From a bacterium (GTDB taxonomy: Bacteria; JAMCPX01): 35,315 nucleotides of DNA. Of this stretch, positions 4,461 to 30,632 are shown piece by piece. Numbering within the stretch: the stretch's first letter is position 1; each line of letters begins with the position of its first letter. Location of the stretch: the NCBI GenBank assembly GCA_021792615.1, contig JAJYUJ010000028.1:1-35315 (forward strand). Direction: 5' to 3'. The position numbers and the translations under genes were made by a program. A model generated the notes under the pieces. It had not been told where the DNA came from. It made no database searches and saw nothing but the letters and a program-made list of their open reading frames with translations.

Positions 4461-5873
4461 ATGAGTGATCTCTCATCTTATAATCTTGTTGTTATCGGCG
4501 CAGGGATAGGCGGTTATCCTGCTGCAATAAGGGCTGCTCAACTGGGCGCAAGCGTACTCATCGTGGACAAAGGAGAAACTGGCGGAACCTGTCTGAACAG
4601 GGGATGCATTCCTACCAAGGCGTTCAAGGCGACTTCCGACACATTACTCCGCATGCATAAGCTGGATGAGTTCGGTTTGTCCGGTGAGGTAAACATAAAG
4701 GCCGACATCAAAACGATTGTTCAGCGCAAGAACAGGATTGTGAGCGAACTGGTCAAAGGGGTGGAGTTCCTTTTCAAATCCCATGGCGTTACGCTGAAAA
4801 AGGCATCCGCCGCATTCCTGTCAAAGAACAGGCTCCAACTGACCTATTCTGATGGTACCCGCGAGGTTGTGGAATCGAAGAGGTTTATTATTGGTACGGG
4901 CTCTTCCCCTGCCGATCTGCCCGGCATAAGAGCAGACGGGAAATTTATTCTGGACAGCACCGACATCCTCAATATTGATACTCTGCCGAAAAGACTTATA
5001 ATAATAGGAGCCGGCGTGATTGGAACGGAATTTGCATTCATATTCAAAAGCTTGGGTGTGGATATTGTCATGCTTGAAATCATGTCCAGGGCATTACCGA
5101 CCGAAGATGAGGATATTGCATCGTTGATAATAAGAAGTTTAAAAAAATCCGGCATAACGCTCAGAACAGGCACCAGGGTTACACAGGCAGAGATACACGG
5201 ACAGGAAGTTAATCTTTACCTGGACAACGGTGAGGTTGTAACCGGGGACTGTGTACTTTTATCAGTCGGCAGGGCCATAAACACCGGTGGACTCGGACTG
5301 GAAAACACCGGCGTCAGACTCGGAAAGAGAAAAGAGATTGTGGTCGATAAGTTTTTAAGCACCGGCGTGGACGGTATTTATGCATGCGGGGATGCGATCG
5401 GGGGAAAGATGCTTGCACACATCGCTTACCGGGAAGGTATCACCGCGGCATCGAACCTGCTGGAAGACAAAAAACTTACAATAAATTACGATGCCATACC
5501 GTCCGCTCTCTATTCAACCCCTGAGGCTGCAAGCGTTGGATTGACGGAAAAATCGGCCCGGGAAAAGGGGCTGGATATAAAGATCGGAAGGTTTCCCTAC
5601 AGAGCGCTCGGCAAGGCAAGGGCTTTTTCACAAACAGAAGGCGAAGTAAAGGTCATCGTTGAGCAGGGAACGGATAAAGTCCTCGGTATGCATATCGCAG
5701 GGGCACACGCAACGGATATCATTGCACAGGGTGCAATCGCCATCCAGAACGGACTGACCATACAATCCATCATCAACACGGTAGCGGCGCACCCGACTTA
5801 CTCAGAAGCTGTTATGGAAGCCGGTGAAGATATTTTTTCGCGGGCAATTCATCAGCCGAAAAAAACAAGATAG
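4461..5873 (+). CDS. lpdA: Dihydrolipoyl dehydrogenase (E3)
   Basis: A flavoprotein that oxidises dihydrolipoyl groups with NAD+. The 470-residue chain has an FAD-binding GAGIGGYPAA motif at 13-22, the redox-active pair C44/C49 in GGTCLNRGCIPTK, a second dinucleotide fold IIIGAGVIGTEFAF, an FAD-contact segment YACGDAIGG and the C-terminal catalytic pair H444/E449 in HPTYSE. The open frame extends about 79 codons upstream through the terminator and palindrome; that extension is rejected because homology begins only at ATG 4461. The ribosome-binding site is weak. A seven-codon ORF (ATG 4441) ends in an ATGA overlap with this start. The next gene, encoding a lipoyl-carrier protein, starts 13 bp downstream, making a natural enzyme-substrate pair. 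No E1/E2 or glycine-cleavage P or T gene is present here. Confidence 0.94.
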   Translation: MSDLSSYNLVVIGAGIGGYPAAIRAAQLGASVLIVDKGETGGTCLNRGCIPTKAFKATSDTLLRMHKLDEFGLSGEVNIKADIKTIVQRKNRIVSELVKGVEFLFKSHGVTLKKASAAFLSKNRLQLTYSDGTREVVESKRFIIGTGSSPADLPGIRADGKFILDSTDILNIDTLPKRLIIIGAGVIGTEFAFIFKSLGVDIVMLEIMSRALPTEDEDIASLIIRSLKKSGITLRTGTRVTQAEIHGQEVNLYLDNGEVVTGDCVLLSVGRAINTGGLGLENTGVRLGKRKEIVVDKFLSTGVDGIYACGDAIGGKMLAHIAYREGITAASNLLEDKKLTINYDAIPSALYSTPEAASVGLTEKSAREKGLDIKIGRFPYRALGKARAFSQTEGEVKVIVEQGTDKVLGMHIAGAHATDIIAQGAIAIQNGLTIQSIINTVAAHPTYSEAVMEAGEDIFSRAIHQPKKTR

Positions 5874-17421: not shown

Positions 17422-18105
17422 CTATCCTTTATTGTCTATAAACGTTTTGATAGCGGTCAATGTTTTTGACGCCGCCTCAACCAGCTCAAGGCCCAGACCA
17501 CTTACTACATGGTCGTCTGTTTCTTCCTTAAAAGTCCTCATTACCTTTGCCCTGCATTTATGAGACTCGTCCTTTCCATTGTTTGGCAGAAGAAGATTCA
17601 AATTTAAAATGGTGTTCAGCGGGATTTGATCTTTTGTAATTATGGAAAGTCCGGAATAACTCATATCCTTCGAAAAGGCGGACACGGTTTTCTCTTTGTA
17701 CGTGTACTTCACTTCGATGGAGATATCGTAACGGTCCTCTTTCCGGATCTTCATACTAACGAACTTTTTGATCTCTTCGAGGAATGCCGATTCGTTAATC
17801 GGTTTGCGCACAAAGTCGTCACACCCTGCCTTGATCGATTCAGCTTTCTTTTCCGTAGAGGTCACCATAATAACGGGTATCTTCTTTAAAGCGGGATCGC
17901 TCTTGAGAATTCTGCAGCATTCGATTCCGTTCATTTTCGGCATTTCCAAATCAAGCAAAATGACGTCTGGCTTCTCTATCTTTGCCAGTTTTAGAGCCTC
18001 TGCCCCGTCTTTTGCCGTTATGATCTTCGATTCAGCCCTTCTTAAGAAAGAAACCTCAAGATCGAGAAAGTTCCTCATGTCGTCAACCAGCAGAATTTTA
18101 ATCAT
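17422..18105 (-). CDS. Response regulator with REC and PilZ domains
   Basis: A 227-residue two-domain protein. The receiver domain (1-118) has the acidic pair D8/D9, the phospho-acceptor D52 in LLDLEMP, T/S in VTST and the conserved lysine in FVRKPI. A PilZ domain (about 120-225) begins RKEDRYDISIEVKY and contains DMSYSGLSI, compatible with cyclic-di-GMP binding (RxxxR-like and D/NxSxxG patterns). It likely relays a phosphosignal to a c-di-GMP-dependent output such as motility or exopolysaccharide. No histidine kinase is adjacent, so it is an orphan. GGGAG before the ATG is the ribosome site, and a near-consensus promoter lies upstream. Confidence 0.92.
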   Translation of the reverse strand: MIKILLVDDMRNFLDLEVSFLRRAESKIITAKDGAEALKLAKIEKPDVILLDLEMPKMNGIECCRILKSDPALKKIPVIMVTSTEKKAESIKAGCDDFVRKPINESAFLEEIKKFVSMKIRKEDRYDISIEVKYTYKEKTVSAFSKDMSYSGLSIITKDQIPLNTILNLNLLLPNNGKDESHKCRAKVMRTFKEETDDHVVSGLGLELVEAASKTLTAIKTFIDNKG

Positions 18106-18190: not shown

Positions 18191-19486
18191 TTATTCTATA
18201 TAACGATGACGCAGCCCCATGATATCGCGATACGTGACGACACCCATGATTTTGTTGTCCGTATCGGTTATAGGCAGTGCGCGGAAATTATAGCGCGTGA
18301 AAAACTCGGATGCCTTTCTGAGTGTGCTGTCATGTGCCAGCGTAATGACATTCCGTATCATCACATCTTTCAGAAAAGCATGCTCTTCAGCGGTCAGCAA
18401 TTCCTTTATGTCCAATACGCCGGTAAGATGTTTGTCGTTGTCCAGGATATAAAGATACATGACGACATCCTTGCCCTTGGCTATATAGCGGTACTGCTCC
18501 TGCGCCTTTTCCACGGTTACGTCCGGTAAAAAAGATATAAAATCCTGCGTTGCAAAGTCGAGGATGTTCTCTTCGTGGTGCTCTACAATAGTGCGGATCT
18601 TGCGAGCATTTTCCGGATTCAGGCGCTTGAGGATTGCGTCGGCTTCCGAAACCGAGAGTACCGAGAGAAAATCCGCTGCCTGACCCGTCGTCATCTCGTC
18701 TACGAGAACTGCAACCTTCTCGATTTTGAGAGATTCCACGAGGTCACGCTGTGCTTCGGGATCGATTTCTTCCAGGGTATCCGATGCTTGCTCGGGATCG
18801 AGTTTTTCAAAAATTTCTACGCGCTGATTGGGCTCCATCTCTTCCAGAATATCCGCCAAATCCACCGGGTGCATGTCGGAGAGTTTTTCTTTCAGGACGT
18901 TCAATTTGATATCGCCCTGAAAACGTCCGATCCGTTCCGGCAACGGCTGGATGTATTTCCATGAAACCGTTTGATCCTGAATGTTTCTCGCCAAATTGTA
19001 GATAAAGTTTGCCAGCATGGTCAGATGGATACGGCGCAAAAGCCCATAACGGCTCAGATCAACATCCGTGACATACAGCATCCCGTCGCGTATCCTCAGT
19101 TTTACATCATAAATGATTTCCAGATCCCTGCCTTTCAAATCTATGGCCTTCTTGTCAATGATATGGTCCTTCAGCATGACCGCATTTTCTTCCGGCTCGC
19201 CTTTATACGGCGATATGTCCTCAGCAACGACGGTTATCTTTTTCTCCTTGACGAGAATTGACCCGATTTTCTCCCACGGTACTACGGCACTCATACCGAA
19301 AGGCAGAGAGATATAGAGATGGGTAACATGGGGAACAGCTCCGTTTTCTTTGATTATGAGATCCCGCAAATGACCGATCTTTTTTTCGTTGAGCATTATT
19401 TTTGCGCCGATCAATTCGCTCATAAAAAATGACAGTCCGCTCTCCTGTTTTATTGCGGTTGTCTGATTCATAACGGTTGGATTCAC
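18191..19486 (-). CDS. Soluble PRC-barrel/MgtE-N/CBS protein
   Basis: A 431-residue protein without membrane segments. The N-terminal third contains two PRC-barrel-like strands (LIGAKIMLNEKKIGHLRDL, then a second near 110-150). The middle (about 195-300) is an MgtE_N superhelix rich in acidic repeats such as HPVDLADILEEMEP and LDPEQASDTLEEIDP. Two CBS domains close the chain (about 305-431, ending VVTYRDIMGL). In MgtE these parts sense cytosolic Mg2+ and gate the channel; here the channel domain is absent and an Nramp-type carrier is encoded upstream. The start is GTG at 19486, overlapping the previous stop (GTGA) and preceded by GGGAG; an ATG at 19471 has no ribosome site. A role as magnesium-sensing partner is inference. 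Confidence 0.88.
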   Translation of the reverse strand: MNPTVMNQTTAIKQESGLSFFMSELIGAKIMLNEKKIGHLRDLIIKENGAVPHVTHLYISLPFGMSAVVPWEKIGSILVKEKKITVVAEDISPYKGEPEENAVMLKDHIIDKKAIDLKGRDLEIIYDVKLRIRDGMLYVTDVDLSRYGLLRRIHLTMLANFIYNLARNIQDQTVSWKYIQPLPERIGRFQGDIKLNVLKEKLSDMHPVDLADILEEMEPNQRVEIFEKLDPEQASDTLEEIDPEAQRDLVESLKIEKVAVLVDEMTTGQAADFLSVLSVSEADAILKRLNPENARKIRTIVEHHEENILDFATQDFISFLPDVTVEKAQEQYRYIAKGKDVVMYLYILDNDKHLTGVLDIKELLTAEEHAFLKDVMIRNVITLAHDSTLRKASEFFTRYNFRALPITDTDNKIMGVVTYRDIMGLRHRYIE

Positions 19487-19689
19487 GGCGCAACTCCCAG
19501 TCCGCCTTTGACGGCTAACGTGATAAATTTGAACAGCAAAATAGCTACCATGAAAAATAAATACACCCGCAGCATAAACAGGGAAAATGACGCCATCCGG
19601 GACATTTTTATATGAGGCTGTTTGTATTTCTTGTTAACATCCCTCACCGCTGAGAAAAAACCCCGGAATATGTTGAAGACCTTTCCCAT
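19483..19689 (-). CDS. Small single-pass membrane protein between Nramp and MgtE-N genes
   Basis: A 68-residue protein of no recognised family. A basic N-terminal half (KVFNIFRGFFSAVRDVNKKYKQ) precedes a hydrophobic segment, about residues 36-60, containing LFFMVAILLFKF. GGAG lies 8 bases before the ATG. It follows the Nramp gene by 21 bp and overlaps the MgtE-N gene by 4 bp (GTGA), so it is translated with both. It could be an accessory subunit linking carrier and sensor. Coupling and orientation make it likely to be real despite its size. Confidence 0.7.
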   Translation of the reverse strand: MGKVFNIFRGFFSAVRDVNKKYKQPHIKMSRMASFSLFMLRVYLFFMVAILLFKFITLAVKGGLGVAP

Positions 19690-19710
19690 TTTATTTCTCC
19701 ATACTGCATT

Positions 19711-20979
19711 CTACTTTAAAATATTTGGAAATACAATCGTCAGGCTGTAACCGGTGGATATGACAATCAAAGCCGCGACAATAGAAATGTTTATGATGTT
19801 TTCCCGCCTGTTGTTTTTGTATTTGCCCATTATTTCCCCATTATTGAGCAGGATGATAAGAAAAACCAGTGCGGCAGGCAGGAGTACCGTTGCAGCTACC
19901 TGCACAAACAGCGTGATCAGCACAAGGGGTGCATGTGGTATCAAAACTACCGTCCCTGCAAGCATCAGATCGAAGAAATAATACGCATAAAACCATTTTG
20001 CTTCCCTGACCTTATGATTCAATGAGTGTGCCCACCCAAACACCTCGCCAAAAGCCCACGAGCTGGCAAGAGATATACATACGGCCCCCAGAAGACCGGC
20101 ATCGAACAGCCCGATCGCAACCAGCGTACCCACATACTTGTTCACCGGCATGAGTGCTATGGCGGCCTGAGCCGCACTTTCGATATCTTGTCCGAAAAGC
20201 ACTTTGCCGGTAACGATAATAACAACGATAGCGGCCACCACGGTCAGGATAGAACCAACCAGAGTGTCCAGTTTACCCCAGAGGATATCCTTCTCCTGCA
20301 TGCCTTTATCGACTACTGTACTCTGCTGAAAGAAAATCATCCATGGAGCTATGGTCGTACCGATGTTTGCCATAAGCAGGAAAAAAAGATTATTCGTAAA
20401 GCCGCCGGCTGCCATGTGTGGAATAAATCCATGCAGAACTTCTTTTACCGAAGGATGAATTAAAAAAGCGGCAGGGATATAGATCATATTTATAGCACAA
20501 AACAGCAATGCGAGTTTTTCCCATGTCCAATAATGTCCCTGAAGTACCATAAACCCCATGATTCCCCAGCAGATCAATACGGTAACCACGGGTGACACCC
20601 CAAAGATACTCAGGGCAGCAGTCATGCCGATGAACTCGGTTATCATGGTCATCCAGTCTGTCAAAACGAGATCCAACAGGGAAAACCATCCCCAGAATGA
20701 TCCGAAAGAGTAAAAGATTGCCTCTGCATGCCCGCGTTTTGTAACCGCACCGAGACGAACGGTCATCTCCTGCACGTAGTATGCAACGGGTCCCATCAAA
20801 ACCATGAACCAGAGCAGGCTGTAACCGGTTTGCGCCCCGGTAACCGCATAGGTCGTTATGCCGCCCGCATCATTGTCCGCAACCATCACAATAATACCCG
20901 GACCGGCAACCAGCGCAAAAATTTTCAAAAACTTTACAACCCTTCGGATGTCATAGTAGGTTGAAGATATTAAATCCAT
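19711..20979 (-). CDS. Nramp-family transporter, NRMT-like (probable Mg2+)
   Basis: A 422-residue membrane protein of the Nramp/SLC11 fold with about eleven hydrophobic segments. In classical Nramps the metal site is DPGN in helix 1 and MPH in helix 6. Here helix 1 reads DAGG (residues 37-40) and helix 6 reads IAPW (210-213), so Asn is replaced by Gly, Met by Ala and His by Trp. Loss of the methionine thiolate ligand is the feature I associate with Nramp-related magnesium transporters (EleNRMT). The MgtE-N/CBS partner two genes downstream supports a magnesium role. Classical Mn/Fe transport is the alternative. A near-palindrome lies between the start and a TTGACA box upstream. Confidence 0.87.
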   Translation of the reverse strand: MDLISSTYYDIRRVVKFLKIFALVAGPGIIVMVADNDAGGITTYAVTGAQTGYSLLWFMVLMGPVAYYVQEMTVRLGAVTKRGHAEAIFYSFGSFWGWFSLLDLVLTDWMTMITEFIGMTAALSIFGVSPVVTVLICWGIMGFMVLQGHYWTWEKLALLFCAINMIYIPAAFLIHPSVKEVLHGFIPHMAAGGFTNNLFFLLMANIGTTIAPWMIFFQQSTVVDKGMQEKDILWGKLDTLVGSILTVVAAIVVIIVTGKVLFGQDIESAAQAAIALMPVNKYVGTLVAIGLFDAGLLGAVCISLASSWAFGEVFGWAHSLNHKVREAKWFYAYYFFDLMLAGTVVLIPHAPLVLITLFVQVAATVLLPAALVFLIILLNNGEIMGKYKNNRRENIINISIVAALIVISTGYSLTIVFPNILK

Positions 20980-21101: not shown

Positions 21102-21257
21102 AACAGGTTGTTGAATATGTCCCTGCATGTCATTGCGAGGAGGGACGACGAAGCAATCTGTAACTTATTGGTTTATAAAAACCGGGATTGCTCGACCCAG
21201 CTCCGCTGTGTGCCCGCGTTCACAATGACAGTAATTCAAGTTTTTCAACAGCCTGTT
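21102..21257. repeat. Nested palindromic repeat (family ii, copy 1)
   Basis: An inner element at 21129-21229 has GTCATTGCGAGGAG at one end and CACAATGAC at the other, with AAGCAATC and GATTGCTCGACCCAGCT inside. The reverse complement of 30531-30632 aligns with it over most of its length. It is itself flanked by AACAGGTTGTTGAA (21102-21115) and TTCAACAGCCTGTT (21244-21257), inverted with one mismatch. It has no ORF. The 307-bp gap between hemG and the Nramp-family gene is mostly this element plus the Nramp upstream region. Confidence 0.75.
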
Positions 21258-30530: not shown

Positions 30531-30632
30531 GTCATTGCGAGCCGACGGGCACACAGCAAAGCTGGGTCGAGCAATCCCTATGCGCGTAGATTGCTTCGTC
30601 GTCCCACCTCCGGCGGGACTCCTCGCAATGAC
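30531..30632 (-). repeat. TCATTGCGAG palindromic element (family ii, copy 2)
   Basis: The ends GTCATTGCGAG and CTCGCAATGAC are inverted repeats. The reverse complement aligns with copy 1 (21129-21229) through GTCATTGCGAGGAG, GGACGACGAAGCAATCT, GGGATTGCTCGACCCAGCT and TGCTGTGTGCCCG. It lies between lipA and the OppD-like gene, just after the family iii repeat. Confidence 0.82.

Follow-up and report, generated by a model that had tools for sequence, protein, structure and literature searches.

Among the Mg2+ importers of bacteria the NRMTs are the fourth class, and what the MgtE-like protein encoded beside them does has been a standing question since 2014. This question is raised again by a locus in a bacterial DNA stretch of 35,315 nucleotides, the whole of which is called the window here, in which an Nramp-family carrier is followed by a very small gene and then by a gene for a protein resembling the cytosolic part of MgtE. 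The minus strand encodes all three proteins: a carrier of 422 residues (19711–20979), a membrane protein of 68 residues with a single helix (19483–19689), proposed here to be an accessory subunit of the carrier, and a putative cytosolic regulator, or sensor, of 431 residues with PRC repeats, an MgtE_N domain and two CBS domains (18191–19486). The stop codon of the small gene and the listed GTG start codon of the sensor gene overlap in the sequence GTGA (19483–19486, minus strand), which suggests translational coupling, provided that the listed start is the one used; the sensor gene also has in-frame ATG starts further inside. The small gene is preceded by GGAG, resembling a ribosome-binding site. 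An earlier note on this DNA, made from the letters alone, had given the coordinates, order and domains correctly, with the sensor gene as the second after the carrier, and had passed over the gene between them (19483–19689), which proved to be the most informative part of the locus. Immediately downstream of the sensor gene, on the same strand, lies a gene for a response regulator with a PilZ domain (17422–18105), which was not seen within the conserved trio.

Carrier class and phylogenetic placement

The carrier belongs to Pfam family PF01566 (E = 2.7e-70) and bears the complete NRMT signature, DxxG in TM1 and TxxA/T in TM6, DxxG–TxxA being the metal site of the NRMTs (PMC8806188). The TM1 motif D37-A38-G39-G40 (20860–20871, minus strand; N36-D37-A-G-G40 with the preceding residue) is invariant across 78 relatives, and the TM6 motif T208-T-I-A211-P-W213 (20341–20358, minus strand), which aligns with GTTIAPW of EleNRMT, is near invariant across 81; one I210V and one A211C are the only exceptions at the metal-site residues among about 80 relatives. 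E115 (helix 3) and Q360 (helix 10) are kept, and the histidine of the proton path is replaced by W213/Q218. EleNRMT of Eggerthella lenta (PDB 7qia; PMC8806188) shares the fold and the complete metal site and is the best match in both sequence and structure, at about 33% identity and with 215 bits (E = 1.4e-62) against at most 58 bits for the canonical Nramps of the PDB; unlike the window's carrier, it belongs to the other NRMT clade and was studied without partners. An AF2 model of the window's carrier continued into the small protein, in which reading through the intervening stop is a modelling device only, has a pLDDT of 86.0 and EleNRMT as its best Foldseek match, with low values for the linker (<50) and, for the small helix, a moderate confidence (about 80) that lends the subunit model little support. 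Natural read-through from the carrier into the small protein, which share a frame in the window, was considered and rejected, the frame being common in 36 of 87 adjacent cases, where about one third would be expected.

The carrier was compared with its relatives in 80 loci fetched with the carrier from many bacterial phyla and archaea, and in a tree of 107 carriers, which was a quick search with long outgroup branches. The NRMTs are split from the canonical and other Nramps in this tree (SH-aLRT 97) and the window's carrier groups with the former, so that the signature, the EleNRMT score and the phylogeny all uphold the NRMT identity proposed in the earlier note, which had also placed DAGG (37–40) and IAPW (210–213) correctly; T208 completes the TxxA. 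Clade II (support 96) holds EleNRMT and the classical sensor–carrier pairs without a small protein, and a second NRMT clade (99) holds every sampled carrier with a small protein, whether separate or fused. Because sampling went by similarity to the window's carrier, the sizes of these clades cannot be taken as representative. Nearly all of the 80 loci have the order carrier, single-helix protein of 50–75 residues, sensor, and those of the subclade Ib (Desulfobacterota, Acidobacteriota) the order carrier, sensor, shortened small protein of 37–40 residues; the trio is kept together in clades I and Ib in bacteria, archaea and plasmids. One carrier of the small-protein clade (L244:6091-7806) has an altered site, its TM1 reading ENDAPS and its TM6 GATVTPW; a small protein was not found near it.

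The proposed MgtE-type regulator and its gene pairing with the carrier

The sensor contains a first PRC-barrel domain (residues 20–86; 19229–19429, minus strand; PF05239), an MgtE_N domain (residues 205–306; 18569–18874, minus strand; PF03448, 7e-24) and two CBS domains (PF00571, 1.5e-18), the second at residues 373–424 (18215–18370, minus strand). The PRC match is weak here (6.8e-4, below the Pfam cut-off) and clear in relatives (4e-15 in L256). The best PDB matches are the cytosolic domains of MgtE (2yvy, 2oux), which share the MgtE_N and two CBS domains; the sensor differs from MgtE in having PRC domains in front of MgtE_N and no channel, its match being limited to positions 11–249 of the 450-position mgtE model. 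Neither the MgtE membrane channel (PF01769) nor the plug helix was found in it by domain search and residue alignment, and the sensor frames of the clade stop within about 10 residues of CBS2. The channel-less domain set read from the letters was thus confirmed for 18191–19486. Full-length MgtE-type proteins with PRC before MgtE_N-CBS are encoded beside an NRMT carrier in two other loci (L257:3797-5653, L256:7194-9053), and in L257 the domain set of the sensor is covalently joined to a channel (PF01769, 1e-16).

The Mg2+ sites of MgtE include Mg4 (D91/D247), Mg5 (D226/D250), Mg6 (D95) and Mg7 (E59), together with Mg2 (E258) and Mg3 (D259) in the region of the plug helix, to which Mg4 and Mg5 bridge (PMC5882242). 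The sensor keeps the Mg6 residue (D272), an acidic residue at Mg7 (D236) and the equivalent of D247 in CBS2 (D421), whereas E258 and D259 are missing with the plug helix and D91, D226, D250 and D246 are replaced by G268, N400, G424 and R420, respectively; Mg4 is therefore half kept (D421 but G268) and Mg5 is lost (N400, G424). This loss fits the missing plug helix, because Mg4 and Mg5 bridge to that helix. With several of the ligands gone, the protein is unlikely to sense Mg2+ quite as MgtE does. The ATP pocket of MgtE (Y170, R187, D188, F227; PMC5529423) has the equivalents Y344, K361, E362 and F401 in the sensor, and most of it is conserved across clades I and Ib. The sensors found with fused carriers (see below) show the reverse pattern, keeping D91, D246, D247 and D95 and losing F227 and Y170, so the regulators of clades I/Ib and of the fused group may read different signals.

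A survey of the gene pair, proposed in the earlier note, found the sensor adjoining 69/69 clade I carriers (duplicates removed), 25/27 clade Ib carriers (the missing cases being contigs that end there), 24/29 carriers with a fused small protein and 58/62 clade II NRMTs, mostly upstream of the carrier, and 0/14 canonical or other Nramps in the same search, a frequency far above chance. Many carriers of the group III-separate, by contrast, have no sensor nearby, and no sensor–carrier fusion was seen. The pairing is present in both NRMT clades, and the sensor–carrier partnership is therefore probably ancestral to the NRMTs, with the small protein as a trait of one clade; the suggestion that the MgtE sensor was moved to a different transporter fold is misleading for this locus. 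Two sensor-type genes in series follow one carrier and small protein in a further locus (L065:7470-10124).

The pairing itself has been known since 2014, when most NrmT genes were reported to adjoin a homologue of the MgtE cytosolic domain and feedback regulation by this neighbour was proposed (Shin et al., 2014; PMC4072509); the idea of a separate regulatory subunit is thus supported by gene context and is not new. Ca_c0685/Ca_c3329 of Clostridium acetobutylicum (PMC4072509), with an MgtE-N-like neighbour, resemble the window's pair in joining an NRMT-type carrier to an adjacent homologue of the cytosolic half of MgtE, and the two kinds also share a Mg2+ riboswitch upstream in some members. 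No small protein is described for them, whereas the window's clade has one, together with an altered sensor. Gene order differs too, classical NRMT relatives in this survey having the sensor mostly upstream and the window's clade having carrier, small protein and sensor. New here are the small protein and its fusion, its use as a clade marker, the M-boxes of the clade and the lost Mg4/Mg5 ligands of the sensor.

A single-helix protein tied to the carrier

The small protein has the core INxKYxxPxIKMTxxVKxALLxLRxYLxxLVxLLxYKF, with a net charge of +4.9 before the helix and +0.2 after it, which predicts an N-terminus inside the cell. It lies beside 69/69 clade I carriers (duplicates removed) and 26/27 clade Ib carriers, the missing case being a contig that ends there. 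In clade II it was found in 0/62 loci, apart from one misclassed clade I fragment, and no other small membrane gene recurs there in more than 3/62 loci; the small protein is thus the mark of one NRMT clade and is lacking in the one with EleNRMT. In each of 20 genomes drawn from many phyla its profile finds exactly one match, at the carrier; within the phylum of the window, the small protein and the carrier occur in the same 6/9 genomes. The matches in 247 Halobacteriota genomes lie only beside six clade I carriers, apart from one marginal match of 20.6 bits. The protein is apparently undescribed: no family was found in Pfam, NCBIfam or PHROGs (best, DUF2270 at 0.051, far below the cut-off), and its relatives gave weak unrelated matches or none. 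Several Chloroflexota and Acidobacteriota loci have a separate small protein without a sensor within about 6 kb, which makes the carrier its constant partner. The gene can serve as a marker for an NRMT clade found in bacteria, in archaea and on conjugative Enterobacterales plasmids.

The partnership is also seen in a natural fusion. Sister carriers from Chloroflexota and Actinomycetota, about 38–44% identical to that of the window, bear about 90 extra residues at the C-terminus: one more helix, then a linker rich in basic charge, then a tail resembling the small protein. An hhalign comparison of the small protein with this tail gave 94.9% (E = 4.3e-8, 34 columns), compared with at most 2.5% for 35 other 52-residue segments of fused carriers, mostly membrane helices, and on these controls the idea that the small protein is homologous to helices of the carrier itself was rejected. 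The AF2 model of one natural fusion (L225; pLDDT 89.9, best match EleNRMT) has an added helix at 417–443, whereas the model of the window's carrier reaches its C-terminus one helix earlier. This helix returns the chain to the inside, so the N-terminus of the fused tail would lie inside, as predicted for the small protein when it is free. Judged from these comparisons, the fusion is evidence for a partnership between small protein and carrier, and a third subunit of the transporter is very probable. Transporters can have tiny one-helix accessory subunits encoded in their operon, such as KdpF, which the small protein recalls in form and operon place, with no sequence relation claimed; unlike KdpF, it is fused to its carrier in relatives. 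Two loci with tandem NRMT carriers (L247, L249) have one small protein fused and one separate, and in a third (L255) both are fused; heteromers are possible in these three cases.

Metal substrate, regulatory model and rival explanations

M-box riboswitches, recommended as a marker of Mg2+ specificity (Shin et al.; PMC4072509), were found upstream of, and on the same strand as, the clade I carriers of L030/L181, L010 and L056, the clade Ib carrier of L073 and the carrier of L210, which has a separate small protein. M-boxes occur in 6/59 genomes searched, five of these six being the genomes with an M-box before such a carrier, and in a minority of the clade I/Ib genomes searched (4/51). These M-boxes are good evidence that the clade has a Mg2+ role, and the Mg2+ role claimed in the earlier note gains from the five related operons but not from the window's own, as no M-box was found in the window or its genome. 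Two M-box matches of equal score lie in tandem upstream of one carrier (L056, ~4950-5790), and a snoU36a match in the window (0.045, below threshold) was taken as chance. The NrmT of A. capsulatum behaved mainly as a Mn2+ transporter, and co-expression of its MgtE-like partner did not improve rescue (PMC4072509); this carrier has a similar neighbour gene but is not placed in a clade. EleNRMT also transports Mn2+ (PMC8806188).

The sequences show the class of the carrier, the unit of three genes and the tie of the small protein to the carrier's lineage, with fusion to it in relatives. The three genes probably constitute an uptake operon for Mg2+, and possibly Mn2+, made up of a carrier, a small subunit obligate to it and a cytosolic regulator that can detach. 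For its substrate, physical complex, regulation and docking we infer the following. The carrier would move the metal down its gradient without proton coupling, like EleNRMT; the 68-residue protein would be an obligate accessory subunit, with one helix packed against the carrier and a basic segment at its N-terminus lying in the cytoplasm; the PRC-MgtE_N-CBS protein would read the metal or nucleotide state and then adjust the carrier; and the cytoplasmic segment of the small subunit would be a plausible dock, substituting for the MgtE plug helix missing from the sensor. The lack of an M-box in the window and in most clade members searched, the A. capsulatum NrmT results on Mn2+ and on co-expression, the missing Mg4/Mg5 ligands, the lack of a sensor–carrier fusion and the function of EleNRMT and the C. 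acetobutylicum NRMTs without the small protein all count against this model. A stronger version is put forward tentatively and seems doubtful: a gated transporter would be assembled from three separate chains, namely a Mg2+ carrier of LeuT fold, a detached regulator of MgtE type and an adaptor of one helix, which would relay the regulator's state to the carrier in place of the plug helix and belong to a new family that defines one of the two NRMT clades. A clade-specific conserved subunit with a natural fusion makes a three-part complex directly testable, and gives grounds for repeating the co-expression tests with all three parts.

The small protein could instead serve the carrier only, as a helix for its structure or assembly in the way that small subunits stabilise other transporters, and be unrelated to a sensor that acts directly or elsewhere. 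This reading has nearly as much for it as against it: the small protein does occur with no sensor within about 6 kb in Chloroflexota and Acidobacteriota, and clade II has the sensor without the small protein (0/62 apart from the misclassed fragment), but clades I and Ib keep the trio together across bacteria, archaea and plasmids and in two gene orders, and the conserved cytoplasmic INRKYxxPxIKM exceeds what a bare helix needs, though the clade Ib form of about 37 residues keeps little of it. A chance frame that encodes no protein is scarcely credible, even though the frame has just 68 codons, matches no family in the libraries and has no gene listed at its place in two Enterobacterales conjugative plasmids, whose gene table is incomplete by design; conservation in more than 90 loci, an excess of third-position changes (101, 54 and 190 at codon positions 1, 2 and 3), the upstream GGAG and the single copy per genome already contradict it.

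It is rather unlikely that adjacency reflects only the co-expression of two separate Mg2+ homeostasis functions without a complex, the sensor being, for example, a metal chaperone or the regulator of another protein. The ineffective co-expression in A. capsulatum (PMC4072509), the lack of a carrier–sensor fusion here and the many group III-separate carriers without a sensor would fit such an arrangement; adjacency in 69/69, 25/27 and 58/62 cases in three groups versus 0/14 for canonical Nramps does not, nor does the L257 protein, which carries these very domains on an MgtE channel, so that they would be able to gate a transporter. A carrier that imports mainly Mn2+, or another divalent transition metal, with a sensor answering to that metal, also appears improbable: the full NRMT site and the M-boxes before five operons of the same clade argue against it, whereas the A. 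capsulatum NrmT result (PMC4072509), Mn2+ transport by EleNRMT (PMC8806188), the window without an M-box and plasmid copies in metal-resistance regions beside ArsR/SmtB, P-type ATPase and CDF genes speak for it.

Trios in the order carrier, small protein, sensor are carried by IncHI conjugative plasmids of Citrobacter freundii and Serratia marcescens (L259:8001-10713, L260:8001-10713), where they adjoin genes for an ArsR/SmtB regulator and a heavy-metal P-type ATPase. In the window, the 19-mer GAGGGACGACGAAGCAATC lies between hemG and the carrier gene (21140–21158) and recurs 9.4 kb away (30589–30607), inverted and with one mismatch, where 0.01 such copies would be expected by chance; it is probably an interspersed intergenic repeat.
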